From Spinacia oleracea (lineage: Eukaryota > Streptophyta > Magnoliopsida > Caryophyllales > Amaranthaceae): a DNA stretch of 64,000 nucleotides. Every line of letters begins with the position of its first letter. Within the stretch, counting starts at the first letter, position 1. The position numbers and the translations under genes are program-made. A model generated the notes under the pieces. The model was not told the DNA's origin. It searched no databases and saw only the letters and a program-made list of their open reading frames with translations. The DNA is taken from NCBI RefSeq assembly GCF_020520425.1, contig NC_079491.1, forward strand, positions 20,575,449-20,639,448, given 5' to 3'. This document shows positions 35,657 to 59,400 of this stretch, in pieces.

Positions 35657-35841
35657 TAGTAAAAAGATGATGTGAGTAAGTATGGGGACCACAAGGAAGA
35701 GATTAATGTTTTTTTTTTTTTTTTTGGCAATTAACAGTATATTAATAACCAAAGCAGAGAGCAAAAGCTCAAATGTTACAAAGAGGACCAGACCTCCAAA
35801 ACACCAGCACCAACAGAAAACACAGAAGGCCTAAACCAGCC

Positions 35842-38800
35842 CTACAACTGCACTAGCTTATCTCTAAGCTCTTCTGAGCATCTACATGACACTCTAAACA
35901 GGATTTCTCTTATAATACAAGAACTAGACTTGACTGCTTTCTTGAAAATGACAGCATTTCTAGCAAGCCAGATGTTGTATACAGTTTCAGCAAAGCACAT
36001 CACATACAACTTTGCAATGTTCCCAGTTTTCCTACCCTTCTTTGCAGCAATCACCAACTCCCTAGAGAAACCATAACCACCTCCATTAAGACCTAAATGC
36101 CTCAAAATTGCTTGCCAAATTGCAGCAGAGAAGCTGCAATCAAAAAACAGATGCTCAACTGTTTCCTTCTTTGCTTTGCATAACACACACAAATCAGCAC
36201 ATGGGATCCCCCAAACTTGAATTCTATCTGCAGTGTATAGCCTATTCAATCCAGCCAGCCAAGTTATAAATATGCTTCTAGGACTGGCCCTGTTATTGCA
36301 CAAGACCCTTTTCCATGAAATTTTAGGGTGATCCCCCTGCAGCTTCCTATACACTAGCCCAATTGAGTACTTCCCTTTCGCATTAACATTATTCCACCCA
36401 CCAATTTGCTGAATCAGTTCTCTTGCACCCAGGATCTTCTTCATTGACCAAGAACAGGAGTTAGGGATAGGGCATACTAAAGGATCCCTCCCTTTCATAT
36501 AGTAACAGTCCACCCATCGAACCCACAGCTTGTCTTTTTTATGAGCAAGAGCCCACAACAGCTTCCCAATGGCTACTTTGTTCCACATGGCAATGTTCTT
36601 TATATTCCACCCTCCAGCAGACTTAGGCAAATACATCCTCTCCCAAGCTACCAGAGCTTTTTTGGAACAACTTGTATCACCAGTCCACAAGAAAACCCTG
36701 CAATAAGCCTCAACTTCCTTCACTATTTTCTTTAGAAGTATAAATATCTGGCACCAGAAGGTTTGCATCCCAAAAAGTATTGTTTTTATGAGAAGCAATC
36801 TTCCTGCATAAGAAAGAAACTTAGCAGACCACACTTTAGCTCTAGCCAGAATCTTCTCCACAAGAGGCTTGCACTAATGATAATTCAATTTCTTGGAGGA
36901 GAGGGGGACCCCCAGGTATCTAAAAGGAAGAACTCCTTCAGGATTGTGAACCTGTTCCAAAATGTGAGCTTTCTCAGCAGCAGTAACACCTCCAAAATAT
37001 ATATTACTCTTTCCCATGTTGGCCTCCAAACCAGACACAGAAGAGAATTTCTGAAAAGCTTCCAACAACAACTGAACTGAAATTTTGTCAGCCCTTGCAA
37101 ATAACAACAGATCATCAGCAAACATCATGTGAGAAATGTTCAATTTCTCACATCTGGGGTGAAAATTAAAATCTGGCACAGCCTTCAATTGAGTCATACA
37201 CCTAGTTAAGTATTCCATTCCAATGGCAAATAGAAAAGGAGACAAAGGGTCTCCTTGTCTTAACCCTTTCTTAGCAGGAAAGGGTTTACTAGGGAATTCA
37301 TTTATCAAAACTGAATATGAAACAGTAGTAATGCAAGCCATTACCCACTGGACAAAAAGAGAAGGGAATCCCAACTCATGTAACACAGTTTCCAGAAACC
37401 CCCATTCTATTGAATCATATGCTTTTTTCAAATCTATTTTAAGCACACACCTTGGTGATATATGAGCTCTGCCATACCCTTTAATAAGTTCAGTAGCAAG
37501 TAAAATGTTGTCAGCAATATACCTTCCAGGAATGAAACCAGATTGGCATTCACTAACCACTTCAGCCACTACCCTTTGCAATCTAGCAGTAAGCACCTTT
37601 GAGATGATTTTGTACACCAAAGTGCAGCATGCAATTGGGCGAAAATCCTTCACATGAGAAGCATTAATCACTTTAGGAACTAAGGTGATTGAGGTGCAGT
37701 TCACACCCAAATACATCTGCTTGCTTTGAAAAAAGAACTGAACAGCTCTATACACATCTGTTTTGATAATATGCCAAGCCTTTTTAAAGAACACAGCATT
37801 AAAACCATCAAGGCCTGGAGCCTTGCTATCATCAATGATATTTAAAGCATCATCAATTTCACCATGGGTGACTGGTCTAACCAAAGACATTGCAGCTTCA
37901 GTAGACAGCCTAGGACCTGATCTCAAAATAGGAATATTAGCTGTATGGATACTACTGGCAGCATTCCCTAACAGCTTATTATAGAAATTTTGTATTTCTC
38001 TAGTGATATCATCAGGATCAGTCAACTTAAGCCCTTGATCATTATACAGCAATGAAATTCTGTTGGTATTTCTTCTTTGTTTCACAGAAGCAAAGAAGAA
38101 TCTAGAGTTAGAATCACCATTAGACAACCAGTTAATTCTAGATTTTTGCTTAAGAGATGACTCCTCAACAGAGAGCCACTTGATGAGGTCCTTTGTGCAC
38201 CTTTTCTCTTCAACTTGCAACAAGATATCTGATGGATCATCCACCGATTGTGCCTGAACACTATCAAGAGATACCTGAGCTTGCTGAATTCTCATATCAA
38301 TCCCAGCAAATTCCTCTTTGTGCAATTGCTTTAGCTTACTTTTAAGCCTTTTTAACTTGAACCAGATGCAACTAAGTGGATTGCCCTGTATAGGTCTATT
38401 CCAATCAAGAGTGACAACAGTCTGAAATTAAGAATGATTAGCCAAGAAATCAAAGAACTTGAATGGTCTACCTCCCCCTGTGTGATCATTCCCAAACTGT
38501 ACCAACAGAGGAGAGTGATATGAAATTGAAGTATTACCATATTCCACTGCAATGTGACCAAATTGAAGCATCCAACATCCATTCCCTAGTGCTCTGTCAA
38601 TCCTACTGGCCACCCTAGCATCACCTAACCCCTTGTTGCTCCATGAGAAAAAATGTCCAGAACTCCTAAGTTCACTCACACCTGTATTAGCTATGAATTC
38701 TTCAAAATCATGAGTTTCATATCTACTAACAGCAGCACCACCAATCCTATCCTGGGTATTCAACACAGCATTAAAGTCACCTATAATCAACCAGGGGGCA

Positions 38801-39199
38801 TTACTAACACTTGCAGCAATCCCTGTTAAGGAAGCCCACAAACCTCTCCTTGTTTCTACTGTATGTAAGCCATAAACAGCTGTAAAAAAAACACACAAAC
38901 ACTCCCTTACTATCCATGATCTCCCCATGGATGAACTGCTCATGAGTAGTATGAACCAATACTGACCCATTCACCATGTTCCAGCCCACCCAAATTCTGC
39001 CTCTAGGGTTACAAGCAGAGTTACAATGCCAAGTCCAAGCCTTCCCTATTTTTTGCTGAACTTTGTCTTTATTCTTATCCTTTACTCTAGTCTCCAAAAC
39101 TACTATCACATCTACATTATTCTTACTTAAGAACTGCTTCAAAGTTCTTGTTTTATTAGGATCATTAAGACCCCTTATATTCCAAGCACAGACAATCAT
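35842..39199 (-). pseudogene. LINE ORF2: endonuclease, reverse transcriptase, zf-RVT
   Basis: Starts at ATG 39197-39199, overlapping the ORF1 stop as ATGA, which points to termination-reinitiation. The AP endonuclease region has ETRVK, IGDFNAV and SYHSPL (the usual D before H is Y). The RT has FIPGRYIADNILL, LKIDLKKAYDSIEW and the FADD box MFADDLLLFA near 37110. The zf-RVT tail reads CADLCVLCKAKKETVEHLFF. The frame has one frameshift near the A8 run at 38884-38891 and in-frame stops at 38428-38430 and 36874-36876, so this copy cannot make full ORF2 protein. Confidence 0.9.
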
Positions 39200-40581
39200 C
39201 CTGGGTGGTTGGTAAAATCAGATACCCCCCCTTCATTCTCCTCCTCAACTCCAGTTATGTTCTCATCCTGTTGCTCCATAGATAGCAGACTAAAAGAGTT
39301 CTGCACTGGAGTACCCTTTAACACAGGTCTCTCCTCCCTATGTTTAGTTCTCCTAGCATCCACTCTCCATTCTGTTGTTTCATGATCTTCCACATTGTTA
39401 CCCACAGGAGTAAGGTGATCTTCAACAACCTGTGGCTTTTGTACCGGTTTTGGTACCCATTTCTTAATCACCTTTTTAACAGGAGCAGCTGCTTTGAACA
39501 CTTTCACGTTGCAGTTATGCCCCACCATACAACACTTCTTACAATATTCTGGTTTCCACTCATAATCTATTGCTTGTTCAAATTCTTGTCCTGAGGGATC
39601 TGCTACAGTAATACTGGTAGGCAATGGTCTAGTTACATCTACCTCAACAAGCACTCTAGCAAAGGAAATTCTAAGCTGCTGAGAGGTGCACTCATCTGCA
39701 TACAAAGGCACCCCAACCACACTACTCAATCTACTGAGAGAGTCTTCTCCCCAACAGTTCAAAGGCGTGTTTGGGAACTTAATCCACAGAGGAATGACTT
39801 TCAACACTTCCTCATGAAAACGAAAACTGGGAGACCACTGCTTGAGAATAGTAGGCTTCCCATAGAAGAAGTGTGGCCCTGCAAACAACACAGCATCCCT
39901 ATCCTCTACAGATCCAAATTTCAGCACAAAATATCCTTCAACATGTAGAAAAACCTTAGGCATAGCTACATGATTCCATTCTTTTGTGATAAACCTCATT
40001 ACAGAAGCAATTGTGGGTGTCTCACCAATAACAAACATCACTACAGCATTAGACCACAGGGCATTGCATCTATTAAGTTCAGACTGTTGCAAGCAAGCAA
40101 TTACTTTCCCATCAGTACATACAGGGGCGACAAACGATAGTGCTTTCCCTTTTGAGGCAATAGAGCTACCCTTCACCTTATTAGCCCAAGTTTCAGTTGG
40201 TTTAGGAGTCCCATTCTCACCCCCTCCCCCCATCTGCAATCGTCTACTAACAATACGAGCAGATGATGACTGACCCCCATCCTTTTCAGCCACAACAAGC
40301 ACACCACTCGATTTTCCAGCAGAATGTAAAGATTGGTATTCACGAATTACCTCCTGAAGACGAATTGATACTGGTCCAGCACTAGGATGCACCAATTTTG
40401 GGTCAGCAATTGATTCAGGTTCAACCAGCAATTCCTCCACCATTGCGTAAGTTAGATCTTGCGTGTTCTCTAAGTTTTCCGGCGTATCATCAGTCTGACT
40501 GGCGATTACCGACGAAGAGGTTCCCGTAGTTCCCGTCGTTCCCGGCGAAACAGCTCGTGTAGTCTTCTTCCTCCTTCCCAT
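39196..40581 (-). CDS. LINE ORF1 protein (DUF4283-like, zinc knuckle)
   Basis: An intact 461-aa frame. It has an N-terminal S/T-rich tail, a DUF4283-like domain at about residues 160-290 (VMRFITKEWNHVAMPKVFLH, FHEEVLKVIPLWIKFPNTPL) and a cysteine zinc knuckle YCKKCCMVGHNC. Such ORF1 proteins bind RNA and chaperone the LINE ribonucleoprotein. No break is seen, unlike ORF2. Confidence 0.9.
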   Translation of the reverse strand: MGRRKKTTRAVSPGTTGTTGTSSSVIASQTDDTPENLENTQDLTYAMVEELLVEPESIADPKLVHPSAGPVSIRLQEVIREYQSLHSAGKSSGVLVVAEKDGGQSSSARIVSRRLQMGGGGENGTPKPTETWANKVKGSSIASKGKALSFVAPVCTDGKVIACLQQSELNRCNALWSNAVVMFVIGETPTIASVMRFITKEWNHVAMPKVFLHVEGYFVLKFGSVEDRDAVLFAGPHFFYGKPTILKQWSPSFRFHEEVLKVIPLWIKFPNTPLNCWGEDSLSRLSSVVGVPLYADECTSQQLRISFARVLVEVDVTRPLPTSITVADPSGQEFEQAIDYEWKPEYCKKCCMVGHNCNVKVFKAAAPVKKVIKKWVPKPVQKPQVVEDHLTPVGNNVEDHETTEWRVDARRTKHREERPVLKGTPVQNSFSLLSMEQQDENITGVEEENEGGVSDFTNHPG

Positions 40582-40779
40582 CGGTGGACGTGGTGCAGGA
40601 TAAGCACAGTACCTTATCGTGCGCTACACCCCATGAGAGAGAAAGTTTTTTTGACTGTTATATTAATTAATCGAAATTTTACCTCCTGAAGACGAGAGAT
40701 TAATGTTAATATAATTGGAAATGAAGATCAAAACATGTCAAAAAAAGGAAAGTGTATCTCTTTTAAAATACAGAGGGAG

Positions 40780-42139
40780 TAATATTTCAGAGCAATTTGA
40801 ATGTTAAACAACAGTCATAGCTAGTCATGTTAGCATTATATCCCAAAAGAAATGGTTCATACTCCATAGCTGCTAATTAGTAATGTAAATGATGATTGAA
40901 AATGAGATGGTTACGTTCTACTAATTGAATCTGCACTCTCTTTTAAATTTAAAACATGAAATGCATAGAAGTTATAAAGTAAATATTGTGAAATCCTGAA
41001 AGCAAAAGCCAGGGAAAGCGTGATATAGAGATTTGAGAAGTGATAGTACGAATAGCGAGTTTTTTTAAGAAATAAAAAAGTATAAATAAATGGCTGTGTA
41101 TATAATTCATTCGATGGATCATAGATTGAGAAGTCAGATGATGACATGTAAAGCGCAAATATCAATACTAGATCAACGCGAATGCATGTACTACTACTAC
41201 TACTACGAGCTGGACTTTTACTGGCCAATGCCTGAACGTAATCTCCACGTGAGCTATCAAATGGATCCAGTGGCGCTATTCATGCAATAGTGTAAACGCG
41301 TAAAACAACAACCTAGTCAGACGGGACAAGATTGCTCGTTGATTGATGCTCAACTCGGTGATATATACCTGGGCTTAAGCAGGCTAGACTCAAGTAGAGT
41401 TGTTAAATTGGCTCATCGGTTCGTATTTTGGTGGGAGATGATACAGTTACCCTGGGGGTAACCTGACTGGACTTACCCTGCAATCAGGTAAGGACATGTC
41501 AGCTTGAAATATTAGGTTTTAGGGGGGAAACTTCTGTTTTAAGGGGGAAAATTTTTAAGGCTTTCCGCCATTCTTGCACTCAGCAGCGCGCAAGTTACCG
41601 CCCAATTCTCTCCCAAAAAAAATCCCGCCCAAATTTTGTAACCTATTCCTTAAAAAAAAAAAAAAAAATAAGAATTCAACCTGACATTTCTGGAAAGAGG
41701 TAAATTTTGTTGAAACTCCATTTGATTTCTAATACCTTATCAATTTTCACTGTGATATAATTCTTTAAAATAGAACAATTAAAATCGATTCTTTGGTATG
41801 TCTTTTTGTGTTTTTTCTTGTAGTTTATGAAATACTTTATTATCGATTATGTTTATTTATAGTTTATCAGATTGTCTGTATATCCTATAAATCTGGTTTA
41901 ATGCGTTTGATTTGGAATGGCGGAGAAAACAATGTGACTGTTAATATGTGCAACAATTAATTATTTTATTAAATTTTGTATGTAATACAAGTGTACTTTA
42001 TTTAATGTGTATGTAGGTTTAATAATCATTAAATTTGCAATACTTTTTTATAAATTAAATGGCCGATGATTTAATTTAATATGTATGAATATTAAATAAT
42101 CTTGAACTAGTGTTAATTATTTATGTATTTTACAGTGAA
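40780..42139. other. Gene-free region before the FAR1-like gene
   Basis: Contains no supported gene. 41500-41650 has TTAAGGGGGAAAATTTTTAA and CCGCCC/CCCGCC-rich words and may be promoter or the edge of the element. An A run lies at about 41654-41669. A 3' splice-like TTTTACAG stands just before the ATG at 42140, so a leader intron is possible. Confidence 0.5.
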
Positions 42140-44982
42140 ATGGTTAGTATAGACCTAAATGGTGAACCAGAGGCCGACGATGGTACTGTTGTCAATTTTA
42201 CTACGCCGAACCCCCCTAAAGAAGGAATGCGTTTTGACTCCGGTTTTGAATTTAGTGAATTTTGTCACCGCTATGCTTACAACGAAGGTTTTGAGATGTT
42301 TGTGAGTAGTGATGAGATAAAGAAAGAGTATAAGGATAAGGGTGTAAGTAAGAAAGGTATAGGAGAACTTGAGGCTAAGGCGCATATGATGCAACGAATA
42401 AGATTAAAATGCAAGAAGGGAGGTGTTAAAAAAAGCGAGGGGTCTAATGTTACAGGTTGCAAAGTCTTTGTTTATGGTTCATGTAAAAATGGAGAGTTTA
42501 TAGTTGTTAATTGTCATTTGGTGCATAATCACCCTCTAAGCCCCGAATGTAGTCGAATGATGGTTAATTACCGTAGCATTGATGGAGCTACCTTCGATAG
42601 GATAATGATAAATGAAAGGGGGGGTGTGAGCGTTAGTAGAAACTTTGGCACTCAACTGATTGAAAAAGGTGGTTTTGATAATATTACGTTCAACAAAAGG
42701 GATGTTAGAAATGCCATAGCTGTTGAACGTCGTAAAACAATGTTTGAGGAAGGAGATGCTGCTAGTCTTGAAAAGTATTTCAAATCACAACGAGAATTGA
42801 ATAGCGATTTTTATAGTTCTATGCAACGAGATGAAGACGGTATTTTAAAGAACGCATTCTGGTCTGATGCGCGTAGCAGAGGAACTTGCAAATACTTCGG
42901 GGATGTGATTAGTTTCGACACCACCTTCTCTAGCAATAGGTACGTAAATGTATATCGTACTTTTATTAATTAAGTCAATTATTATTATTTTTTGAAATAT
43001 ATTAGGATGTCATAATGGTTATTGTGTTGGTTTAGTTGTTGTTACTTATTAGGGTTATATATGTATGTGTTTAGTGTATTTTATTTTAATATATTTATGC
43101 ATGTTGGTTTGCATGCTGATCATCACTAACGTTAATTAAAAATTTGTTCATTTGTATTAGCATGTCGTAGATAATTGGTTACGTGGTAGTACACAGTTCA
43201 TGATGATTATATGTAATATTATTAAATAATTTCAATCAAGCAGGTATCGTATGCCGTTTGCCCCTTTTGTTGGCGTCAACCACCACGGGAAATCAATTGT
43301 ATTCGCCGCCGCTTTAATATCACATGAAGATACTGAAACTTTTGTTTGGGTTTTTGAGGAATGGTTGAAGTGCATGGGAAAGCCTCCAAAGGGCATTTTA
43401 ACCGACCAAGACAAGGCAATAGGTAAGGCAATTAGCCTAGTTTTCCCAGGTGTTCCACACCGTCTTTGTTTGTGGCACATGCTACAGAATGCCTCTCGGA
43501 ACCTTGGCAAACTTGCTGAATGGAAAAGCATTGATACACTTATTAGAACGGCCGTTCATGATATGCTCGATCCTGAGGAGTTTGATGAGGCTTGGTGTCT
43601 TGTGATGGACACATATAATCAACGTAAGGGCTGGATGCTGGATGCTTACGATAACCGTCAACAATGGGCTCCAGCCTACAATAGAGGTAGATTTTGGGCC
43701 GGAATGTCATCAACACAGCGAAGTGAAGGTATGAATCGTTACTTCAAAACTCAAGTAGACCTAGAATGTGGATTGCTGCAGTTCATTAAAAACTATGAGT
43801 TTTGTATGAATATAAAGGCAGAGGAAGAAAAGGAGGATAATTTTGATTGTGTAGATAAGCCTCCTCAAATTGATGTTGACAAGAGTGTGTTAGCTGAGTA
43901 CGTTTTCCATAAGGTTTACACCAACGAAATGTTTGCTGATATCGTGCGTGAGCGTAAAGGTTTAACCCACACAAATGTTACCAAAATTGATGCAATAGGA
44001 TCACTTATGTTGTATAGAGCTGATGAGAAACTGACCTCCCCTCATTGGAGGAAACGGTTCAAAAGCTACACCGTTAAAGTAGATAAGGTTATAGGAGAGG
44101 TAAGTTGTTCATGTCAGTTGTTTGAATTTAGAGGTATTCTATGTAGGCATATACTCAAAGCCATGGATGTGGAGGATTTTCAATTTATACCTGAGAAATA
44201 TATACTAGATAGATGGAGGAAGCAAGTTAGGTCTTATGAGAGCTTGAGGGTTTCATACTATGATCCGGAGGAATCAAGACGGCTAGCAAAAGCTAAAGAG
44301 CTATCTTTAAGGCACAATTATTTGAAAGAATTGGCCATGCATAATGACGTTGCATACAAGCTGTATACGGAAGCTACTAATATTGTTAGGCTAAAAATGG
44401 AGGATGCGGTGGGGATACGTAAAACGGGTGACCAAGGAGATACGTCTATTGTGTGGTGGGATCCTGAAGCACGTAATGTGTTTGGTCGTCGTAGGTTAAG
44501 GCCAAGAGAGTGTAATGAGCGTGCTTTAAAAAGGACAGTTCAACCCGTTCAAGATGATGTGATTAAAACCCCTGTTGATAAGAGGCATGTTGGTAGGGAA
44601 AAGAAAGGACCTTGTTCAATTTACGACAAATCTAAGAAGAAACAAGCATGTACGCACGCCGAGATTGCAGCCAATGAGGTACTTTTAAGTTGTTTTATAA
44701 TTATTTTATTAGGTTATTATTTGAACTATTAAAATTTAATAAGGTTTACTCTCATTGTAGGAACTTATCGGCTCCATGTATGGGCATATTCCTAGCTACC
44801 GGGCTAGGCAAGAACATGCAAACAACGTCAACGATGAACGCGTACATCCTTACTACAATGGACCTGTGTTTGACGACATTCCCGAAAGTTCGCAAATAAA
44901 TTTATGTGAAGATATATCTCAGACTTTCGATTACAATACATATGAATGGCGTACACGACTCGGCGGTCGACTTACAATGTAG
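42140..44982 (+). CDS. FAR1/FRS-like MULE transposase
   Basis: Exons 42140-42939, 43244-44678 and 44761-44982 give 2457 nt and 818 aa with no internal stop. Residues about 25-150 are a FAR1-type zinc-binding DNA-binding domain (FSEFCHRYAYNEGFEMFVSS, then HNHPLSPE). The MULE transposase core has ISFDTTF (Asp about 260), ILTDQDKAIG (Asp about 321), CLWHM and STQRSEGMNRYFK. A SWIM finger CSCQLFEFRGILCRH follows near residue 550. The family includes both active Mutator-like transposases and domesticated light-signalling factors such as FHY3/FAR1. The neighbours are element-like, so I infer a transposon origin, but the intact frame and three clean exons leave domestication open. Confidence 0.85.
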
Positions 44983-45803
44983 TTGTTCTTATGTTGTATT
45001 TGCTTTAGATTTTGTGGGATGTGGGAATATATTCATTGATGTTTGCTTTGCATTAAACTCGGGCAGTCTACTTTTACATATTCAAGTTAATCCAAAATGT
45101 TGCATGCATGGATGTAATTTAAGGAAATCAAACTTTTTGTCATTAGCGTGTAAGACTTGTATTAACAAAATATTTCCAGAAGTGGTATATTGTGTTGAAA
45201 AATCCAGTGTTGTTTATCTAATTTTCTGTCCAAAATTAATGTTGGTCCATTTCAAAAACCAAAAAAAAACGGGGGGAATGGGAGCTGTTGAATAATATGT
45301 TCATATTGCGCGTATCAAGTGTCGAACCTCAGACCAAAGGGGTAGCGTTGCTCTATAATAATGCAGTAACCATTGTGACGTGAGGCCGAAGCCATTGCTC
45401 TTACTGGTGGTTTAATGTACATATATTGTGGTCTGCTTAATATCCTCACCTGTTTATACAACGTTAATTAATGAAATTCCCCTTTGAATACAAACAATAA
45501 TATATATATGTTTTATATAATTAAATGTAACAAAATTAATGCAGTTAGAATATTAATTCATTTATTTCGTTCACACGTTAGTTGAACTAAAGTATGTAAC
45601 ACATTGGTTCATACTAAGTAATTATAGATAATTTTGAAATTCATGGTCATGGTGTTGTGCACCTATGTTGAATTGGGGACATGATTTCTACAAGTAATTA
45701 ATTATCTCGTGGACTCTACATTTTATTCTGTTTACACCTTATTTGTATATATAGGTTTTTATAAACATAATATTACTCAAGTAAATCAAATTAAAGCAGA
45801 GAA
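44983..45803. other. Gene-free stretch between the transposase and XRCC3-like genes
   Basis: Mostly AT-rich. 45305-45400 read on the minus strand has a weak tRNA-like look (AGGTTCGACAC box B, GGTTACTGCATT), possibly a SINE fragment, but no duplication or tail was found. Confidence 0.4.
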
Positions 45804-46622
45804 ATGTCAAAAGCAGTTTCAAATGAAAAAACAATTGTACAGAAAATTGCAACTAGGTGCAACGCCATTGACAGAATTATGCAAGGCGGTGTAAGTGTTG
45901 GAGAAGTGACTGAGTTGTGTGGGGAGAATGCAACCGGTAAAACTTAACTTTGCCTGCAAACCAGTATTGTATGTCAATTACCTCCGTCTTTGGGTGGAAT
46001 GTTTGGAGCTTCCATTTATATCCACTCAATTGGTCCATTTCCTATTCGTCGTTTAACAGGTATAATGCCCCACATTTTACAATCTCCCATAAATCAAATT
46101 GATAACCCTTGTGATCATATAACAACCAAGCAAGTGGAATCCCCGCATGAATTACCTGATGTTCTTGATTGGGTTGTAAAACTGATTAAGTATTCACATA
46201 ACACATGCAGGCATATCCGTTTAGTTGTTATAGACTCAATCGCTAGTATTTGTGCTAGCCATTTTGAGAACACGGTTGAGGGGTTAGACTCACGAACACA
46301 ATTATTACGTGCCATTGGATACGGCTTACATTCCATCGCCTCTACATACAATGTTGCTGTTATCGTTGTTAATAATGTTGTTGATGTGTTTCCAAGCGAC
46401 CGTGATTCGTCTACAAACTTTATGATGTCATCTGGTCGGAAGGTTCGGCCCGCTTTGGGGAAAGGATGGACTCGAAATATTGCAACAAGGTTGTTTTTAT
46501 CCAAAGCACTTAATCCCGTCACTCAAACGTCTGATAGATTGTGTAGTGTTTTGTTATCTCCTACGCTCGAGTTAGATGCTTGTAGGTTTAAAATAACAGA
46601 GAAGGGAGTCCGAGATGAGTAA
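45804..46622 (+). pseudogene. XRCC3-like RAD51 paralogue, intronless, with one in-frame stop
   Basis: One frame of 273 codons starts at ATG 45804. It covers nearly a whole plant XRCC3. Walker A is GENATGKT at residues 40-47, Walker B is IRLVVIDSIASIC, and the C-terminus has SSGRKVRPALGKGWTRNIAT, then ITEKGVRDE, which is XRCC3 wording rather than RAD51, DMC1 or RAD51C. LPPSLGG and NPCDH are also as in plant XRCC3. XRCC3 acts with RAD51C in homologous recombination and crossover formation. Here TAA at 45945-45947 follows GKT directly, where relatives have Q (GKTQLCLQ), so it may be one C-to-T change. Host XRCC3 genes are split by introns and this one is not, so it is a captured or retro copy. 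It sits 0.8 kb after the transposase on the same strand. Confidence 0.75.
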
Positions 46623-46837
46623 ATTATGTAATTTTAAAGTGTATCCATGAATATTCCTGCTGCGTTAGTCAAAAAATGTTCGAAATGTATTCATTGTAGG
46701 AGTGCTGACGTTGTTATAAATAAATACATACGTTGAAAATGATCGGTCGTTAATAAAAATACCACAAATAAACCATCCAAAATAAGTAAACATAATTCCA
46801 AAATACACTCAAACAAGTATACAAAAAGTGGTCTTAT

Positions 46838-49800
46838 TCATAATGAACCAACGTTTTGGGTGATTGTGTTCAGGACCTCATCCATGCCTATGTCGTTGAC
46901 GGAGCTGCCGATTAGTCGTCCGAGGATGTATTTCCGGGCGTCCATCTCATTCTTTTGATAACACTACACGCAGATTATGATATTGTTATTATCCTCAGAG
47001 GATGTTTTTGAATAACAAGATGTTTACATAATAACCTTAAAAAAATTGAAGACAAATTAACATACCTCCATCCATTTCCAAGCATCTTCACACGACAACA
47101 ACAAAAAAATCATACACAATAACCCTCGATCTTCTGAACATTTTTCAGTTATTGGATCCTTTTCATATAAGACACTACTCTTAAACGCTTTATCAAAGGT
47201 CAAGACATTTGATCCATGAATTGGTTCCAGGTCGCTAAAAATCGGGCCCTGCAATAACGCTTGATTCAGTATAATATTATCTACGTGTTAATGTGTAAGA
47301 TTATTTAGTTTGGAAATCACTTACAATTTTGTTCACAACGGTGTGCAAAAAACACATGTCTGTACGAGCAGGGCTCAGTTTAGGAATTTCCCTAGTTATC
47401 CTAATCACCATCCACCGACCTTTAAACGCGATAGGAGCATATGTCTGCGCAGGTGAACCCCTCTAAAATTAGTTTACAAAAGATTAACAATTATACTCAT
47501 CGGATCCTGAATACTATCGTAAGATTTACCTTTCTCACTACATCCAAATCAATGCCCTTGTTCATGTCATATTTGATCCTATTTCCCATCATTGATAGTG
47601 TTTCCACGTAGTCTGCCGACATGTCTTCTGACTCCATCAAGTGACTCTGCAAATAAAAAATTGTTAGCTACAACTGAAGCTCTAGACACCAGTTTGTATT
47701 ATGGAACAACAATTACTAGAGTTACCAAGTAGTCTGGATGTAGCACGTAATTGTTAAGGCCATGCATTTGAATTATTTCGCCGTTGAGAAAAGAACACCA
47801 TGCAGACATAATCTAAAGTATTGATATACAACTCAATTAGTATGATAATAAGTTTAGTACTAGAAAAAAAAATTAAAAATTCATGTACCTCCATTGTTAT
47901 TCTTCCTTTCCTTTTGAAAGCGTCGTAAAGCATTCCTCTAGTGAGCTCAATTACACCGTCTCGATACAGAACCTGGTCCCTAAATTTGTTCGCAGCGAGT
48001 AATTGTTCTGACACCTTTTGTTGTGTTGGGTCAATCCTTGTCAAAACTTTCTTATGCCCTTTGTGTCTTAGATCATCATCGGACTGTGTGTGTTCATCAC
48101 TGTCTTCATCGGACTCTCCATCGTTCCTCTTCTCCTCATCGGATTCTCTGTCATCTCCATTGTTTTCATCGGGCTCTCCGTCATCTCCCTTGTCCACACC
48201 ACCATCTGTCGACTTGCCACCCTACAATTTTATTAGCGTCAGTATATTTCCAAATATAGGACACATGTTATATATTACGTGACGCATAACAAATGTTTGT
48301 GCACTGACCTCCATCCGGGAAGGCTGCCTCCGTCGTTTTGGACGTAAATTTGTTTTCAGAACCTCTGTTGGTGGTCGGGCTGCTGGACCTCCCTTCACTT
48401 CAACTCTTCTTTTTAGCCATGGTGGTAGCTCGGACAAATTTCCAATTGGGTAAGGTTTCCCGTACACGACATCACGAACAACCTTAAACACACACACATC
48501 AATGTTAAGTAACTCCTTCATTTTGGAGTAATTTATAAAGGTATAAGTTTGTAGAAGAAGTGTGTTACCGGTGCGTGACCGTAAGATCCATCTGGTCCGG
48601 TGTCTCTTGATATTAAGGCATTTACCTCTTTGGTCTGCCAAGCACCGAGTCTGGGTGAATCCATCTTCCATCCTTTGATTGTTTTCGGGTAATTTATTCT
48701 ATCTAGATATGCAATCTGATAATTGACATGTGAGTTGGGTATATTATGTATTATTTAAAAAATTCAACATTCAAAGCGGACTAATAATAAAACCCTTACC
48801 AACAAAACAAAGGGAGAAGCTCTTCCAGTCTCCTTCCCACGACCAACCATCCAATCGTATACGAAGCCACACCAATTCCAATCATGAGGGTTTTTTATAC
48901 ATTCGTCCTTAAGAATGTGCAACAACTTTGGCGTAACAAAGTTGTATCTATTCATGCAGAAGAGACTACCGAAAGTCAGTAGTATAAAATGCCTTAAAAA
49001 GACGTGTTGATTATCGACTTCCAGTACTGCCCTGTTGAATAGCTCAGTGTAATCAATCCCAAAGTTTTGGTCGTACATGTCCTCTAACTGAATTAGCTCA
49101 GGGTCATCGAATCTCATTTTATCAAATTCTAAATGGCCCATAGGTAGCCCAGTAATCCAACCTATCATCTCCTCGTCTATGACAATGTGATAATCATCTC
49201 TAATATGCAACGTTTGTGCTTTCCAATCCCACTTACTTTCTAACCAAGTCATGAAATACCTATCTACCTTCGTAATTTTCAAGTCTAACACGGACCCAAA
49301 ACCAGCAGCTTCAATCCAATTTTTCCTAATATCACAACAGTTACTGACCAAATCAAACACCAGACCCGGATACGCTCTCAATGCGGTGTGCTGTGAAACA
49401 AATAATTACGCCGGACTAATGTCAATTTTCTCTACATCTAATACATACACAAAATCAAAGCACTCTAATTGATATATGTGAACTTACCTGTGGCTTAGCT
49501 TTGCTCTCCCCCTTCCCCCTAGGAGGCCTACCAGGCCCACCTTCAATCCATCTCCCGATTGGTTTGGGTTTAGCAGCCCTTTGTTCATCGGTCATTGGTG
49601 GCCTCCCTCGCTTGCGGCTTCTAGGTAGTCCATTACGACGACTCCCTCGTTGGGGCTTAAATTACTTAAATTGATTTTAGTACAAATGAATTGGTAAGAC
49701 AAAAAATTCAATTAACATGTACAAGTTGTGCAACCTGGGGGATATCGGTCGTTCGGTTTAGAGTGTCCCAAATTTCGTCCTATATTGTAGAAATTTGAAT

Positions 49801-50479
49801 TAATTACCAGCTATATAAAATTTAAAGCATGCCATTTGAGCTTGGGGGGTTATAACTAACAACATATTAAAGTTAAAGCATACCATTTGAGCTTGGGGGG
49901 GTGGGATTTCAAAAATAGTAGACCCACTTGTACCCTGATTGTCCTCAATTCCACTAAGTAATGGAGATATATCCTAATATAGATTCATACATTATTTGTT
50001 AACAATTTTTCTAATTCACAGTAAAAAAACTACCTTCATTGCACAATAATGTATAAAGATTATCAGGAAATGTGCAATACCTCATTTGACTTTTCCGACC
50101 GTTCGCCTGTTTGCTCTACGTTTGTCTTATTCGTCTGTTTCACCGAATCGGAACGGGTTTTCCGGCGATGCTGGGTGGTGCCTTCTTCTCTAGTTTTCCG
50201 GCTACCTTGGGTGATGCCGACTTCTGGAATTTTAGGGTCAAGTTGAGATGCATCGTCTTGGTTTGTAACAGCTTGGGTTGTTGGGTTTGGCTGGGCTGTT
50301 GGGTCTGGTCCAGTTGTTGTACCAGCTTCGGTTGTTGGGTCTGACCCCACCAACTCGGACACATTCGTACCGGCGGTAACCGGGGACTCCTCCATGTCGG
50401 ACAAACTAGACAGAATATCAACGCAAGTTTCAAGTACAGACTCAAAATTTGATGTTCCAGGATCTTCTTCCCTACACAT
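46838..50479 (-). CDS. Element-type protein: AT-hooks, plant-mobile-type domain, degenerate Ulp1-like C-terminus
   Basis: Thirteen minus-strand exons join without a break to 865 aa: 50081-50479, 49884-49973, 49735-49779, 49488-49655, 48800-49390, 48569-48715, 48309-48482, 47889-48221, 47726-47812, 47530-47646, 47325-47462, 47066-47248 and 46838-46963. Every intron is phase 0. Residues 1-178 are low-complexity and T/Q-rich, and 179-234 carry AT-hook-like RKRGRPP and PGRPPRGKG. 235-480 is the domain found upstream of Ulp1 in KI-type MULEs (YFMTWLESKWDWKAQTLHIR, IGWITGLPMG, FILLTFGSLFC, IAYLDRI). 539-600 is very acidic (GKSTDGGVDKGDDGEPDENN). 620-865 resembles Ulp1/C48 (ELTRGMLYDAFKRKGRITME, IMSAWCSFLNGEI, then GRWMVIRI) but the catalytic HW is RW and no DCG is seen. 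So a SUMO/Ub-like binding role would be inference. Confidence 0.7.
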
Positions 50480-51214
50480 TAACTAACAATGAACATTATT
50501 TTTGGAATTAAAACATCTTAAATTATAATTTTGGGTATAATGAAATGTGAAGATTTTATACAGATCCGAAACAATTAAAAACCAAATTAAATAACTATAA
50601 TTAATTGGTTGTAAAAACAATTCGAAAATGTTACCTGATTGAGTAGATTGATAGTAGTTTGGGGTTTGAAGCAGAGAAATTCAGTTCATGTAGAAGAGAG
50701 AGAAAAGGGAAAAAAAGAGACAAAAAAAAAATCAGTTTTTATAGTACCCCTATTGTTTATTATTTAACACCGGAAATAAAAAAAGTTAAAAGATAGTTAG
50801 CCTTGTTCTTCAAGGCGACCCAAATTAAAATTAAAAAACGTTGACCTTGTTCTTCAAGGCAACCGAAATAAAAAATTATTATACAACATTTATTAATTAA
50901 GACCATTTATTATAAAGGGAGTTATGGGAAGTTATCTAATAAAGGTGTGTTTTTACCACTATTTAGTTATGGATACAGCTTTGCACATACAGATCAAATT
51001 AAATTGCAATACGGGCCAAGGAAAAACGAACACTAGTCACCAACAAAGTAGCATGGTCAACCTAGAAATCTAATATGGTTTGTGATTGAATGAAATAAGT
51101 CGCAAATTTGTTAACACAAACATAAAGCACGAAAATTAGGACCCTACGGTATTCGTTAGGCGTCCACGTGCACACCAATTAGTTAACAGCTTTAACAAAT
51201 TATGTGACACATGG

Positions 51215-51790
51215 GTTTTGCGTTATGTGTCAACGTGCTCACCATTTTGATAGCAACTAAAACAATTCACGGATCATTGGATTCTACTACATACTTTCAA
51301 CGCATGAAGTAACGCTTAACTGGCGGAGTTAGTTACCCGCATACGTAACTTCCCACGGGTAACATTCCACAATGGTTTTGCGTTATGTGTCAACGTGCTC
51401 ACCAATTTGTTAGCAACTAAAACAATTCACGGATCACTGGATTCTATTACATACTTTCAACGCATGACGTAACGCTTAACTGGCGGAGTTAGCAACCCGC
51501 ATATATCGCTATTAAATACTTTCAACGTATGATGTGTAACTATAAACCACAATATCACTAGAACTTAGCTAATTATTGTGTACGAGGTCACAAATTATTG
51601 TGTACGAGGTCACAAAGTAACGCTTAACTGGCGGAGTTAGCAACCCGCATACATAACTTCCCACGATAATTCCACTAGGGTTTTGCGTTATGTGTCAACG
51701 TGCTCACCAATTTGTTAGCAACTAAAACAATTCATGGATCACTGGACTCTATTACATAGCTAATTATTGTGTACGAGGTCACTAATTTGT
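51215..51790. repeat. Irregular tandem array, about 160 bp unit
   Basis: Units begin GTTTTGCGTTATGTGTCAAC at 51215, 51375 and 51680, and include TTAACTGGCGGAGTTAG and CTATTACATA words. The third copy is preceded by a partial unit from 51617. A second short unit, GCTAATTATTGTGTACGAGG, recurs at about 51568, 51592 (partial) and 51757. The copies are alike but interrupted. Confidence 0.8.
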
Positions 51791-52154
51791 TAGCCAGAAC
51801 ATACTATTATCGTATCGTCTAGTAATTGTGTTTAAATTATCATGGACATACAGTTATAACAGATAAGAAACTTGGATATTCACGCAATAGCGTAGTATGT
51901 GGCCAAATCCAACCTTGTATTAAACTATAAGAACTTATAATTTAACGTTATAACATAAATAACACGTGGAATTATTTATAATAACGAAATAAATATAGAT
52001 ACAACCACAAAATTATACTTTATACAGACAATATCCGTTGTAATTTAATGAATCAGAAACTCCACCTAATATCACTTTTAACACTAGTAATAAAAGCCTA
52101 TTCCACCTAAGTTGTCACTGTATTGGTCAGTCCCACCGCCCAACAATGTACTTG

Positions 52155-52365
52155 GCGGGAAACACAATATAGAGTATTAGAAATTCTGAGATAAAACAAA
52201 AACATTAACGACAAATCCAATACATGCAAATAATATATTTCGATATTATTTTTTAAATACCATTAATAATTAAAACCAGATTAACAAAACATTGTACAAG
52301 CAAAAATAAATTGTTGTGTAACTATACATTGACATACTTTCCCGCCAACATCAATGCTATATATA
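52155..52365 (+). promoter_or_regulatory. E2F-type sites and TATA box before the 187-aa gene
   Basis: GCGGGAAA at 52155-52162 and TTTCCCGC at 52338-52345 match the plant E2F consensus TTTSSCGC in both orientations. A TATATATA-like box (CTATATATACT) lies at 52358-52367, about 90 bp before the ATG. S-phase expression would follow by family knowledge only. Confidence 0.45.
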
Positions 52366-52453
52366 CTAATTACAACTACCATGGTTTCCATTCATCAAAT
52401 ACATCCATAACTCATACAGTTAAACAACTCATCTATCCACACTATTTCGCAAT

Positions 52454-53017
52454 ATGGTGAGCACAAGGAAACAAGCATCAAAGGGAATGAAGGCATCCGC
52501 ACAAGGTGCAAACAACCCGATTAAGGTTTGCGGTAAAGGTAAATTAATCACTGTTCAAGTTCACTTACATGACTTGAAGTTCGTTTACAAAAAAACTTAC
52601 GTAACATTGGATCTCATTGCTCATTTTTGTTGTGTATCAGATGTACCACCAACACGGAAATGGTCCAAATATATGGAAGTTGAACTAAAACAAGAACAAT
52701 TTAGAATTGATTGGAGGAGGTTTATGCGCCTGTTGGTGAAACGTTTAGGTCCTTCGGAGATTTCCAAAATGCTTAGCGAACTATACTACGCACCAAATGT
52801 TAGCGAAGTCTTTATGGAGGAACGGGATTCATATCTTTTAGAGAATTTTTCGTGGCAAGATATCGAGCCAAACACAAAAGGCGAACGAGTCGTTGCTGTG
52901 GCGAAGGCGGACGACAGACTTATTAAACGTGAGCCGATAACGGAAGATACGTACGCATTAAGAGCAGGGAAACAGAAAAAAATTGTTGTGATCGATTTAA
53001 CTGATGAAACTGATTAG
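52454..53017 (+). CDS. Unrecognised 187-aa protein ending in a SUMO-interaction motif
   Basis: A single open frame with a TATA box about 90 bp upstream. I do not recognise the fold. The N-terminus is basic (MVSTRKQASKGMKAS). The middle has alternating hydrophobic strands and a WRRFMRLLVKRLGPSEISKM helix. The C-terminus reads KKIVVIDLTDETD, a textbook SUMO-interaction motif of the V-I-D-L-T plus acidic type. It is transcribed divergently from the 13-exon gene, whose C-terminus looks Ulp1-like, so a SUMO-linked role is a reasonable inference but is not shown. Confidence 0.55.
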   Translation: MVSTRKQASKGMKASAQGANNPIKVCGKGKLITVQVHLHDLKFVYKKTYVTLDLIAHFCCVSDVPPTRKWSKYMEVELKQEQFRIDWRRFMRLLVKRLGPSEISKMLSELYYAPNVSEVFMEERDSYLLENFSWQDIEPNTKGERVVAVAKADDRLIKREPITEDTYALRAGKQKKIVVIDLTDETD

Positions 53018-53443
53018 TTGATCTGAATGTTGTTTTTTAAATAATTAATGTTGGATATTATTTAAAATCCAGTGTTGTTTTTTAATTGTTCTACAGCAGT
53101 TACTGTATTGTACTTTTATTAATTAATGGAATGTTTATTGTTAAAAGTTTCTTTAATTTGTATCATTATACGTATCTCACTCAGAGTGATGAATTACTCA
53201 CTTGGTTAAACCTTTCAAACCGGTTCCAGGTGAACCCGAGCATCGATTCGAATCACAGCCCCTGTCTGTTTTGGGAATCTTTTGTACAAAAAATTATTTT
53301 TACTATTATCTACTTTTGTGAGTTACTCAATTTGTCTTTGAAAACATCACCATCAACAAAGAAATTTCCAGAAAAACCGGTAGCACTTTTCCCCCAATTT
53401 TTTTCATAGAAAACCCTAACTTTCGCAATCTAAACCCAAAAAA
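53018..53443. other. Gap between the 187-aa gene and the PB1-like gene
   Basis: No gene. 53170-53300 contains GGTTCCAGGTGAACCC and ATTCGAATC, which may be a SINE head or tRNA relic, but no element borders were found. Confidence 0.4.
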
Positions 53444-55047
53444 ATGGAAAAAGTCGCTGCAAATTTGAGGTAAGATCTTCAGTTTTATTTCATTGTCATT
53501 TTTTGTTGGTTGCTCAATTAAATTGATTTCTTGTTCACTAAAATCTCCGAAAAATTGCAGCAAACAACGGAAGTATAACTACGTTTTCCTCAGCATCTGG
53601 CATCGGGGCAAATTCGTTTTCCATCCAATCCGAAGTTACGAAAAAGGCCATAATGAGATGTATATCATTCCTAAATCTAAACTTGAATACAATTATTTGA
53701 TTTTTTTAGTTAACGCACTGGGATACGAACGATTCAAGATCTGGGTTGTTCCAGATCTAAAAAAATTTAAAAAGGAAGGAACTGTGGTAGCAGACGCAGA
53801 GCATTTCGACGAACTGATACAGGGTATTGGGATGGTCCAAGTAATTATCCAGCCCACAGATGACTTAGGACAAGATCTAACAATGGCCAAGAGGAAGATG
53901 TTGGTTCCTGTTGTTCATACCAGCCCAAAAAAAAAGGTAATTTTTTTGTTTCCTTTTTTATTTTGTGCACAAAAATTTGTTATGCAATTTTATTCTTGGT
54001 TATCTGCAATGTTTAGTATTTCATAAAATGTTATGCAGAATTAATTTTGGTTACCTACAATGTTTAATTTTAATTTAGTGGCAAACTGAGGAATCGTTTT
54101 TTTTTTTTTTTTTTTTTTTAGTACACAAATAAATTTGGGTTATGGAGATCTAAGTACATGATTTTATATTCTAACAGAAGCTTGGAATGAGTTGTGGTGT
54201 TAATCAATTTGCAAAACTCGTAGCAAAGTTAACAACTTACCAAAGAGAGTGGGTTGTGGATATGGGTTTCGAGGAATTACTACACATGAGGGTAATTAAC
54301 ATTGAACCAAAGTTCGGTTTTTGGATTACTTCAAAGTTTGATCCTGAAACATTAGAACTAAAGATAAGGGACAATTACAAGGTTAAATTAGATGAGGAAA
54401 TGGTTTGTTGGGTACTAGGTTTGAAATCCGGTGAACATCTGATCAATCCTACAAGATCGGAAATGTGTGTTGATTACCACAACAAAAGGCAGGAGAAGAA
54501 AAATAAATATTATGGTGCAATCAAGGAGTCGGAGGTGTATTCACAGATTATTCAAGGTGACCCAAACGAACAAAAATTCAAAACCCAATTCCTGCTATAT
54601 GCACTAGGAACAATTCTGTGTCCCATGAGGGAATGTGGTTGGATTAGCCCGCTTCATGCAAACGTTTTAGAATATGCGACAAAGGCGAGTCATTGTAATT
54701 GGGCAAAGTACTTGTTAGATTGGCTAGTGACTTGTGGCCAGCACCTAAATACACCGGAAGAGGGTTACGGGGGATGCACCCTACTGCTACTTGTAAGTGA
54801 TTATTAACCAACTTTTTCCTTGCAAATATTTTCAATCTAAATTACTAATCTGTGTAACATTTTTCAGATAATATACATCGATAGATTGGCATGCTCAAGC
54901 GTAAACCTCAATATAATACCAACTGCGTGTCGCCTACGGATGTGGGACCAACACAATGTCAACAGACTCCTGAAATACGACCAAGGACCAAATGGTGAAT
55001 ATGGTTTTGGTGAAGTGGATGAACAATTCACCTACGGAGATGTGTGA
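53444..55047 (+). CDS. PB1-like plus plant-mobile-type domain protein (398 aa)
   Basis: Exons 53444-53469, 53561-53936, 54178-54792 and 54868-55047 give 1197 nt with no break. Residues about 12-100 are the PB1-like domain common at the start of plant MULE proteins (FVFHPIRSYEKGHNEMYIIP, YNYLIFLVNALGYERFKIWV). A K-rich linker follows. Residues 140-398 are a paralogue of the 13-exon gene's central domain: FGFWITSKFDPETLELKIRD, MVCWVLGLKSG, FLLYALGTILCPMRECGWIS, NWAKYLLDWLV, then IYIDRLACSSVN. It lacks any Ulp1 catalytic part, so it is shorter than full KI-MULE proteins. The function is unknown; element origin is inferred from the domains. Confidence 0.75.
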
Positions 55048-55402
55048 TCATAGCGCAACAAGTTGGTCACTTAATCTTTATTTCATTTAGTAATGAGACT
55101 TCATTTAATTCACTGGTTCTACATTTTTATAGTTGTACAAGTGTAATAATCGTGTTTACTTCTTATTTGTTTCGTTTTATTTTTGGGACAAATATTGTAT
55201 GCCAATTACATACTCGTTTTTTTTTTTTTGTGTGGAAATTATGTGTGACAATTAAGGGAGTATATGAATTTAAAACAAAAAGTCCAAGAATACTCAAAAA
55301 CACAACGGTAATATATTTTGAATAAGAGCACTATAAATTGGAATCATTTCAGCCCATTTTTAACAAAAACACAATACACTATTCCAACAAAAATTACAAG
55401 TC
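55048..55402 (+). other. Gene-free stretch
   Basis: 3' flank of the PB1-like gene and leader of the GRF gene. AT-rich, nothing else visible. Confidence 0.5.
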
Positions 55403-55921
55403 ATGGTTGTTGAGGATGGAGCACCAAAATCATCAAGTTCAATTAGAAGTAGTCCTTGTAAAACTCGGTCTCAAGTTAGATGCCATCACGGTTATCCAGC
55501 AAAACTGCAAGTGTGCAAACACACTAAAAATGCGGGACAAAGATTTTACTCGTGCCCGACTTGGAAGGTACGTAATTAGTGATTCAGTGTATAGTTTCAA
55601 AATAACGCACATTTGTAATTTATTTATTTGAATCAGGATGATACTTGCGGTTTCTTCTATTGGGAAAATGAAATAAACAATAACATAGTGCAAATGTTAC
55701 AAGATGACAACTACAACCTCCGGGAAGAGATCATGCGCCTTACAATAGAAAACGAAAACCAAAAAATGGAGAATAGGTTGCTGAAGTGTACGGTCACAAG
55801 CTTTGAAGGGAATAATATGAACATGGTGAATCAAATTGTTGAAGCAAAAAAGGAGAAATTATTTTATACCATTTGTTTCATGTTCTCCATTTTGTTACTC
55901 ATTATCTCGACTAAGTTTTGA
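55403..55921 (+). CDS. GRF-type zinc finger protein with coiled coil and C-terminal membrane segment
   Basis: Exons 55403-55567 and 55637-55921 give 149 aa. The ATG at 55403 leads into the frame with RCHHGYPAKLQVCKHTKNAG and QRFYSCPTWK, and exon 2 begins DDTCGFFYWENE. These are the Cys/His and GRRF-like residues of the GRF finger, C.HG..A.L..C.HT.N.GQRFY.CP....CGFF.W. GRF fingers bind single-stranded DNA or protein. Residues about 75-125 look coiled coil, and KLFYTICFMFSILLLIISTK is a single membrane helix at the very end. Many plants have this GRF-coil-TM layout in element-rich DNA. Confidence 0.75.
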
Positions 55922-56425
55922 CTAATGTACGTACCATGTACGAATTTTAAATGTTTAATTTCAAAGTTCAATTGAGTTTTCATTTTAATAATTTCTTTTT
56001 ATCCTTTATTTTTTTTTACCTTTCATTACATATGCCTAGGAGACATAATAATTACCTTTACCATTTGCGCTTTTCAATGTCACAAAATACCTTTACTAGA
56101 TTTGTTACGTTTTACATAAATACACGCATGTTGATTATTTAAAATACAACTTGAATTAACGACAACATCGTATAATAATAAAATTAAAACATTATAATTA
56201 AAGAACATATAAGATATATTAATGAAGGTTGGAATAGAGGAAAGAGGTCCCAAAAAGTCAAAAAAGACTCTTACACAACCAACACTACAACCTAAACACT
56301 TCCCAAGTTCAGCGTGTCAAATCACTTCCCCCAAATCTCTCCTCTACAAAAACACTCCATCCCTTCACAATCTTCCACATTACTCCACCCAAAACCAAAA
56401 AAAACCTTCAAAATTTGAAAAAAAA
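55922..56425. other. Gap between the GRF gene and the NAC gene
   Basis: AT-rich. 56225-56425 is the probable NAC leader and proximal promoter. I looked here for a partner of the left edge near 41500 and saw none. Confidence 0.5.
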
Positions 56426-59400
56426 ATGGAGTCTGACTTGGGATACGAGGTTCACAATGTTGAAGATCAGGGGAAGAACGGAAAAGACGACGGCACGGTG
56501 GAGGTAGACCCAATTTCTTTGTTGGAAAAGGTATGAAACTAGCTCAATTCACTTTGACATAACTGATCTACCTTTGTAAGTTACACTCTTGGGGTTAATT
56601 GTATGTTTCTTTTGAATTGATGTTGAGTTTCCAAGTTCTATGCCCTTATTTTTGCGTAATTCGAAGTATTTTCCATGGATTTTTCGACTGAATTTTGTTT
56701 GGGTAGGTTTATTCTTAGATGTAACATTCATAAATCTAAAATATTTTGGGAATTCAGCTGAATTAGGTACTTAATTCAAATTGGGGGTTTGATTTTACCA
56801 TGTAATGACCTTTGATTAGTTGATTATATAGTGTGGTTGATAAAATTAATCGACAAACAGTACAAATATGAGGGTTTTAATTGAGATAATTGAGATCATA
56901 ATCTTAATACAATTTGGTATTCTTCCTTAGTTTGTTTTATAAATTAATTGGATGACAATGTACAAGTCATAATAATAACATTAAATTCTTTGAGGAATTT
57001 GCTAGTTTACCAACCTAAGCATGCACACAAAAGGGGAAAGGGGTAAAACAAAAAAAACATACTACTTTTGGTTCACATTTAAAGTGGGGGAGAAGTAAAC
57101 AATATGGTGATATTTTAGATGTAGTAGTGATATTAACTAAACAATGATTTGTCAAATATTTTCATTGACAGCTGCCACCGGGTTTCCGATTTAACCCGAC
57201 GAAAGAAGAGTTAATTATGTTCTATTTACCGAAGAAATGTTTGGGCCAAAACATGGGTCCGAAATGCATAAATGACGTAAACATTTATGATCACTCGCCT
57301 TGGGAATTACCATCATTGTCATACCTACATTCTAAAGACCGTATTTGGTATTTCTTTTGCCCGAGAGTAATGCAAGATAATGGTAAGACCCCTAGGAAGA
57401 CTCTAAAAAACGGGTATTGGAAAGAAACGGGCAGGGTAACCACACTTACTCATAAGCAATATCATGTTGGTGATCTTAAAACGTTCATCTACCACATAGG
57501 GGTGGCACCAAAAGGAGAACGTACTAATTGGGTTATGAAAGAATTCAACTTAACCGAATACATGATACAAGAAATGTGTGTGGTAGATAACTCATACGTG
57601 CTTTGCAAAGTGTATGAAAAAAGTGGTCCGGGGCCAAAAAATGGAGCAGAATACGGGGCTCCATATGACAAGAGTGAATGGGACAACAAGTTTGATAACC
57701 AAAACACACACAACTGTCCTAGTGTGTATGTTAACCAAGTACAAGGAAGTGATCCTAGCAACTCGAATTGTGGTCAGAACATCAATGCTAGTGAAACCAA
57801 TGCAACAAACTTTGCAGGCATCGACCCTCACTAGTAGAAAAAACCCTTATTGCAGCGGGCTTTTAGACCCCTGTTGCAGCGTACATCGTATGCTGCAACT
57901 GGGGGGCCTGCAACAAGTCTGAACTTGTTGCAGCGTACAATGTTCGCTGCAAAAAGTGATTTGTTGCAGCGGGCTTTTAGATGTACGCTGCAACAAGTGC
58001 CAAAAAATTGGCAAAATTTTGGACTTGTTGCAGCGTACATATATATGTACGCTGCAAAAGACTCAACTTTTTGCAGCGTACATTTATTTGTACGCTGCAA
58101 CAAGTCTGAATTACTCAATTTTTTGCAGCGTACATTTATTTGTACGCTGCAACAAGTCTGAATTTTTGCGAAAATTTTTTCCCTTGTTGCAGCGTACAAC
58201 ATATATGTACGCTGCAAAAAAGCACTTTTGGCGGGAAAATTCTAATTTTGTTTAGGGATACCTAGAGTGCCTTGCACCAAATATAGAAACCTGTCAAAAC
58301 AATAATAGAATAACGCAACCTGTATAACAAATATAAAAACAACAACTGGAGTTTTGTATACTATATATCCCAAAACCAAAGTGCACATATTACATTTAAA
58401 TGTATGTTCCAATTTCAACATAAACATACATTTTAATATAAAATTTATTCTATAACAACTAAACCAACTCGATCAAGCGCGCTAAAGCCAATAATAAATA
58501 CTTGTTGGTAAAAAACTTAGCCCATTGCTCACGAACCACATCAAATTCCTCGCATAAGGCGCAATCCTCGGAGTGTAGACCTTTACAAAAACAGAAATTT
58601 AAATTAAACATTAGATTAAATACAAATTAAATATCACATTTTAACATTCAAGAAACTAATGACAATGTCCTAATAGTCTAAAATGAGTCCTTAGGTTCTT
58701 TAGTTCAAAGTTGGGAGCGAAAATGTCATTTTAGCCTAAATATGACCTATAACGACCCAATGAGCCTATAGGTGCATAAATAGATTGGAACGAGTCTTAG
58801 ATCGTTAAAATTATGCATATTAAACATGTAATAAGTTTTAAATGAGTCCTTAGGTTCTTTATTTTAAAGTTGGGAGCGAAAATGCCTTATTTTAGCCTAG
58901 ATATGACCTATAACGATCAAACAAGCATTAAATGGGTATAAGTAGATTAGAATAAGTCCTAGAAACTCAAAACTAAGCTTATTAATCATATAATAATTTA
59001 AAAATGAGTCCTTAGGTTCTTAAGTTCAAAGTTGGGAGCGAAAATGTCATTTTAGCCTAAATATGACCTAAAACGACACAATGAGCCTTAAATATGCATA
59101 AATGGATTGGAACGAGTCTTATAAAGTTAAAATTATGCATATTAAACATGTATTAAGTTTAAAATGCGTGCTTAGGTTCTTTATTTTAAAGTTAGGAGCG
59201 AAAATGCCTCATTTTAGCCTAAATATGACCTATAACTATCAAACAAGCATTAAATGTGCATAAACAGATTAGAATAAGTCTTAGAAACTTAAACTAAGCA
59301 TATTTATCATATAATAAGTTTAAAATGAGTCATTAGGTTCTTAAGTTCAAAGTTGGGAGCGAAAATGTCATTTTAGCCTAAATATGACCTATAACGACAC

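Follow-up and report, generated by a model that had tools for sequence, protein, structure and literature searches.

In a 64,000-nt stretch of the Spinacia oleracea genome (NC_079491.1, positions 20,575,449 to 20,639,448, forward strand; the window, meaning the whole stretch analyzed), the gene for a Mutator-like element (MULE) transposase is accompanied by a spliced gene on the opposite strand. We interpret at least the stretch that covers both genes and extends as far as a tandem repeat array (about 42–52 kb), with a probability of about 0.5, as a MULE without terminal inverted repeats (TIRs), built like KI-MULE, VANDAL, or MULE-Solanaceae_1 and perhaps equipped with a self-protection module. 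The pairing and the absence of TIRs match published elements, so a non-TIR MULE accounts well for these two genes. The candidate region (41400–56220, borders from a first-pass annotation) holds six genes over about 14 kb. All six linked genes of that annotation were found at the locus when the gene models were rebuilt from the sequence; five have open frames, and the XRCC3-like gene carries one in-frame stop. Membership of the right-hand genes in the element is unproven; the evidence neither establishes nor rules out a single element of six genes.

The gene at 42140–44982 encodes a MULE/DDE transposase, as expected of the MULE superfamily. In Pfam searches, its product showed a MULE domain (PF10551, E 2.3e-30, positions 1–99 of 99 covered) and a SWIM finger (E 2.7e-08). 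Of the “complete FAR1/MULE transposase” proposed previously, the full MULE domain, the SWIM finger, and the open frame thus hold, but the FAR1 domain scored 14 and 12.6 bits, under the curated cut-off of 28.1, and is weakly supported. Candidate acidic DDE residues were seen by eye in the translation. Comparison of the transposase with PDB sequences gave no relevant match to a known structure.

The minus-strand gene, whose splice sites were picked by eye, is a real spliced gene, although individual exon boundaries may be wrong. Its stretch yields a best phase-0 spliced reading of 2874 nt, versus 1044 nt on the opposite strand; in 60 Markov control sequences, the mean was 1421 nt and the longest reading 1944 nt. 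The encoded protein consists of a plant-mobile-like domain, an acidic repeat stretch, and a C terminus without a known domain; it also contains two motifs, spotted by eye, which we assume to be AT-hook-like. The second plant-mobile-like gene lies 3 kb away on the opposite strand. Both proteins are homologous (27% identity over 251 amino acids, E 1.3e-25; 26% over 177 amino acids for the domain exons alone), and the boundaries of the domain-bearing exon, both in phase 0, correspond between the two genes. The paralogy with matching intron positions supports duplication of the pair as DNA. The divergent genes in this part of the region flank a tandem array (Table 1). Tandem Repeats Finder (TRF) placed two rows in this gap at 51.2–51.6 kb and three in exons 1 and 8 of the minus-strand gene.

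Table 1. Positions of genes and repeats, numbered from the first nucleotide of the window
Feature	Position	Strand	Description
MULE transposase gene	exons 42140-42939, 43244-44678, 44761-44982	+	3 exons, 818 aa, stop-free
XRCC3-like (RAD51 paralogue) gene	45804-46622	+	single exon, one in-frame stop
Minus-strand gene	50479-46838	-	13 exons, 865 aa; 12 introns, all GT-AG and phase 0 in the model
Tandem repeats	51208-51808		160-bp unit with partial copies and 22-bp unit, in noncoding gap of divergent genes
187-aa protein gene	52454-53017	+	single exon, open frame
Second plant-mobile-like gene	53444-55047	+	4 exons, 398 aa
GRF-finger gene	55403-55921	+	2 exons, 149 aa
PB1 host gene (left)	31287-32084		PB1 E 1.7e-17
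NAC-like host gene (right)	57169-57831		NAM E 2.7e-33
Long interspersed nuclear element (LINE)	35711-40694	-	frames for reverse transcriptase, zf-RVT, and DUF4283, broken by stops or frameshifts

We compared the candidate with known elements, which are characterized here from excerpts of the cited papers. KI-MULEs are non-TIR elements with a ULP domain reversed relative to mudrA, and ULP sequences are also found in Jittery-like MULEs of grapevine and melon (PMC2528002); the KI-MULE group has three coding genes (PMC13317346). Like the candidate, KI-MULE (KAONASHI) of Arabidopsis lacks TIRs and combines a MULE transposase with an opposite-strand gene, whereas the candidate possesses more genes and no ULP1 protease domain detectable with Pfam or PDB sequences. 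MULE-Solanaceae_1 (group 42 of PMC6446971) shares with the candidate the SWIM finger, the lack of a TIR, and an antisense PMD with an unknown open reading frame (ORF), the PMD identity of the candidate itself not being matched by a model. Its row in Table 1 of PMC6446971 lists the target site duplication (TSD) as “9 bp and not indicated,” the TIR as “None and amino acid sequences,” SWIM, and “unknown ORF and PMD (antisens).” MULE-Solanaceae_1 thus has one PMD and, where indicated, a 9-bp TSD, whereas the candidate has two plant-mobile-like genes and no convincing TSD was found around its borders.

VANDALs are multi-gene MULEs with degenerate TIRs and the source of the VANC anti-silencing proteins (PMC5735166, PMC10398659). 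VANDAL/Hiun (VANA, VANB, VANC) resembles the candidate in its degenerate or missing TIRs, its several genes, and its tandem repeats, which occur both in noncoding DNA and in the variable coding parts of one protein (PMC5735166, PMC10398659). The variable parts of VANC often hold tandem peptide motifs, and VANC binds tandem repeats in the noncoding parts of VANDALs (PMC5735166). Unlike VANDAL, the candidate shows no DUF1985 or DUF287 match in Pfam, and the FAR1 match of its transposase is weak. Pack-MULEs contain sequence from host genes, which the XRCC3-like copy of the candidate may also be, but they are devoid of a transposase, and their gene fragments lie between TIRs (PMC6446971, PMC6431247). 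Capture of PMDs by MULEs has been proposed, with a suggested anti-silencing role (PMC5418596). The MULE excerpts cited here mention no XRCC3-like or GRF gene in VANDAL or another MULE. Among open-licence papers listed, neither XRCC3 (20 of 42 papers) nor “GRF zinc finger” (20 of 74 and 20 of 47) appears as a term.

The recombinase copy was previously described as XRCC3-like, and this was borne out. Its frame comprises 272 codons ahead of the end stop, one of which is the in-frame stop directly after the Walker A motif, and is otherwise continuous. For the part from 45948, the top three of 56 distinct PDB sequences (E up to 0.01) were XRCC3 (E 4.2e-18, 5.3e-11, and 7.3e-11), with archaeal RadA close behind in fourth place (1e-10). 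As judged from PDB sequences, the gene thus appears nearest to XRCC3 among the RAD51 paralogues. Plant XRCC3 genes have introns, and the single-exon copy would then be retro-copied. In neutral simulations of substitution in the frame, with 500 runs per level, the share of runs with no more than one stop was 60% at 0.05 substitutions per site, 27% at 0.1, 5.2% at 0.2 (where stops averaged 4.6), and 1.8% at 0.3. Because the outcome hinges on the divergence from the host gene, the single stop is no demonstration of selection, and a role of the XRCC3-like gene as a working part of the element is unproven.

The GRF finger of the rightmost gene, also named in the first-pass annotation, is certain from its sequence matches (Pfam E 3.5e-11, 43.5 bits versus a cut-off of 25.9; NEIL3 GRF chains in the PDB, E 6.7e-10 and 2.3e-08). 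The finger-giving frame starts at 55403; the listed long ORF over the first exon (55326–55631) is the wrong frame. After the finger, a coiled-coil-like stretch and a hydrophobic tail were seen by eye. The 187-amino acid protein had been called a protein with a SUMO-interacting motif (SIM). Judged by eye, it has what we take to be a basic N terminus and a SIM-like C-terminal end, but no Pfam domain scored above cut-off. Structure prediction without an alignment (mean predicted local distance difference test, pLDDT, 40.5) was too poor for a fold search. The same holds for the plant-mobile-like exon with a two-row alignment (mean pLDDT 35.3).

In a non-TIR MULE of this kind, cutting and joining at short or degenerate ends would fall to the transposase, which has an open frame and both a MULE and a SWIM domain. 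The opposite-strand protein, with its AT-hook-like and plant-mobile-like parts, may bind AT-rich element DNA, perhaps the 160-bp repeats, and by analogy to VANC in VANDAL may keep the element unsilenced. More tentatively, the SIM, second plant-mobile-like, and GRF proteins could represent further element genes beyond the shared repeat region. The XRCC3-like gene may be a captured host recombinase, broken in the present copy by the observed stop. Functions beyond the domains are inferred. We consider it unlikely that the whole region is one autonomous non-TIR MULE of about 14 kb with genes for break repair (XRCC3-like recombinase and GRF single-strand-binding finger) and a twofold means of silencing escape (the plant-mobile-like pair and the SUMO-interacting protein), in which the recombinase stop would be private to the present copy. 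Were it one element, the paired plant-mobile-like proteins, the SIM protein, and the repair-type recombinase would allow direct tests of silencing evasion and of whether such elements supply the repair of excision breaks themselves; as separate insertions, the genes would be an ordinary finding.

Several observations weigh against the non-TIR MULE. The giant Mutator-like element, perhaps non-TIR, of the first-pass annotation fits the pairing of transposase and opposite-strand gene, but no ends, no convincing TSD, and no second copy in the window were found for the six-gene unit. No marking feature was found at either 41400 or 56220. TIRs, reported as not visible before, were found neither in flank alignments nor among the 25 longest of 231 inverted pairs. 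When the left flank was compared with 16 inverted blocks by gapped local alignment, three scores exceeded those of shuffles: two came from the same AT-rich match, seen twice, and the third from a poly-A/T match. Another block pair (46620 versus 51600) scored 33 versus 28 in shuffles, with the match inside a coding exon. Around the borders, 66 exact direct pairs of 8–11 bp (nested lengths counted apart, not compared with shuffles) start at 40601–42120 and end at 55901–57160; none stands out as a convincing target duplication, and the best inverted end match among them is 10 of 20 bases. Self-BLAST and protein comparison revealed no second copy of the region in the window. Three scans of viral and two of prokaryote contigs, which covered the transposase, both plant-mobile-like exons, and part of the XRCC3-like gene, found no relatives, as expected for plant sequence; by their descriptions these collections are plant-free and thus silent on copy number.

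The family assignments and repeats are likewise unfavorable. The “plant-mobile” label of both proteins is tentative: neither Pfam (no match of any kind at E up to 10, including PMD, DUF1985, and DUF287, whose models are assumed to be in the library) nor a two-row profile of the pair against PDB sequences gave a match. Of the two paralogous plant-mobile-type genes on opposite strands claimed before, the orientation and the homology therefore stand, but not a match to a Pfam model; a PB1-like N terminus, also claimed, was not recognized in the 53444–55047 gene by Pfam and a further sequence search. An Ulp1 domain suspected by eye in the minus-strand C terminus was not supported (no Pfam match; the two PDB sequences listed were both RecA and weak). 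With no Pfam match and no Ulp1, kinship with VANC or KIU is one of architecture only. TRF rows in 41400–56220 (six of 35 in the window, the sixth at 55991, outside genes) are not denser than elsewhere. For words from the repeat array, 14 recurrences fall within the region and 14 in the more than threefold longer sequence outside it, a count made with no control. In the excerpted literature, part of the VANDAL group has TIRs of 46–174 bp (PMC6446971), PMD-C clade PMDs in MULEs are portrayed as transposase fusions, unlike the candidate (PMC5418596), and the first-reported Pack-MULEs are at most 7 kb long, with transposition said to fall above 6 kb of cargo (PMC6431247).

It is possible, if doubtful, that the region instead gathers insertions that are neighboring or nested. 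A MULE (which may include the XRCC3-like piece), an independent element of plant-mobile type, and a GRF gene would then have met by chance in intergenic DNA that a LINE entered as well. No shared ends were found, and the 5-kb LINE next door, lying between 13-bp direct repeats (35698–35710 and 40695–40707; reverse transcriptase E 1.6e-37), demonstrates that the interval receives insertions. A change in the CpG segmentation at 53.8 kb, inside the candidate region, agrees with such a history and is mildly against a uniform one. However, self-BLAST (E up to 1e-4, matches of at least 60 bp) shows no repeat pair inside the region besides the tandem array, so that the genes are not set apart by long terminal repeats or a long TIR pair. 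Gene spacing is also tight, and the plant-mobile-like paralogues stand on both sides of the common repeat region.

We regard it as quite unlikely that these are domesticated or ordinary host genes, with a FAR1-related (FRS-like) gene and plant-specific genes that are transposon-like only in looks. Open frames, spliced genes, and a CpG level like that of the rest of the window agree with this explanation, as does the abundance of the MULE-derived FAR1-type genes (18,744 in 80 species in the excerpted survey, PMC8599713). The transposase nevertheless has a strong MULE domain and a FAR1 score under the curated cut-off, and a stop-broken XRCC3 copy would be unexpected in a conserved host cluster. 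The CpG share of the candidate region is 0.201 in coding and 0.130 in noncoding DNA (0.115 without the repeat array), compared with 0.129 elsewhere in the window (coding and noncoding pooled, satellite excluded) and 0.131, 0.205, 0.132, and 0.131 in four host gene segments. The noncoding value fits ordinary host DNA, which speaks against the MULE. The level as a whole equals that of ordinary gene-rich DNA here, and a young element, a methylation-avoiding element, or host genes fit alike. The LINE is CpG-poor (0.041), unlike the candidate region, and segmentation gave 0.186 for 40446–53810 versus 0.007 for 35668–39440 in the LINE. A CpG excess as a sign of methylation escape was dropped, because the excess stems from coding parts and the noncoding share equals the rest of the window.

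The flanking host genes noted before, PB1 on the left and NAC on the right, were identified by their domains (Table 1), but the PB1 gene is not adjacent, since the LINE intervenes. Farther to the right, 62788–63395 has a very high CpG share in the segmentation (0.415) and overlaps a 174-amino acid minus-strand frame. The interval between the NAC-like and PEARLI-4 genes holds about 11 copies of a 159-bp unit (58671–60438; also read as 321 and 480 bp). Short repeats of GTACGCTGCAA-like words, which match themselves in either orientation and recur on the right side of the window, occupy 57829–58244 and 63194–63437. On the left, 23713–24210 and 25009–25504 form an inverted repeat roughly 0.5 kb long with 92% identity, possibly the TIRs of a small element, and a copia-type gag fragment lies at 27787–28332 on the minus strand (Retrotran_gag_3, E 2e-11).

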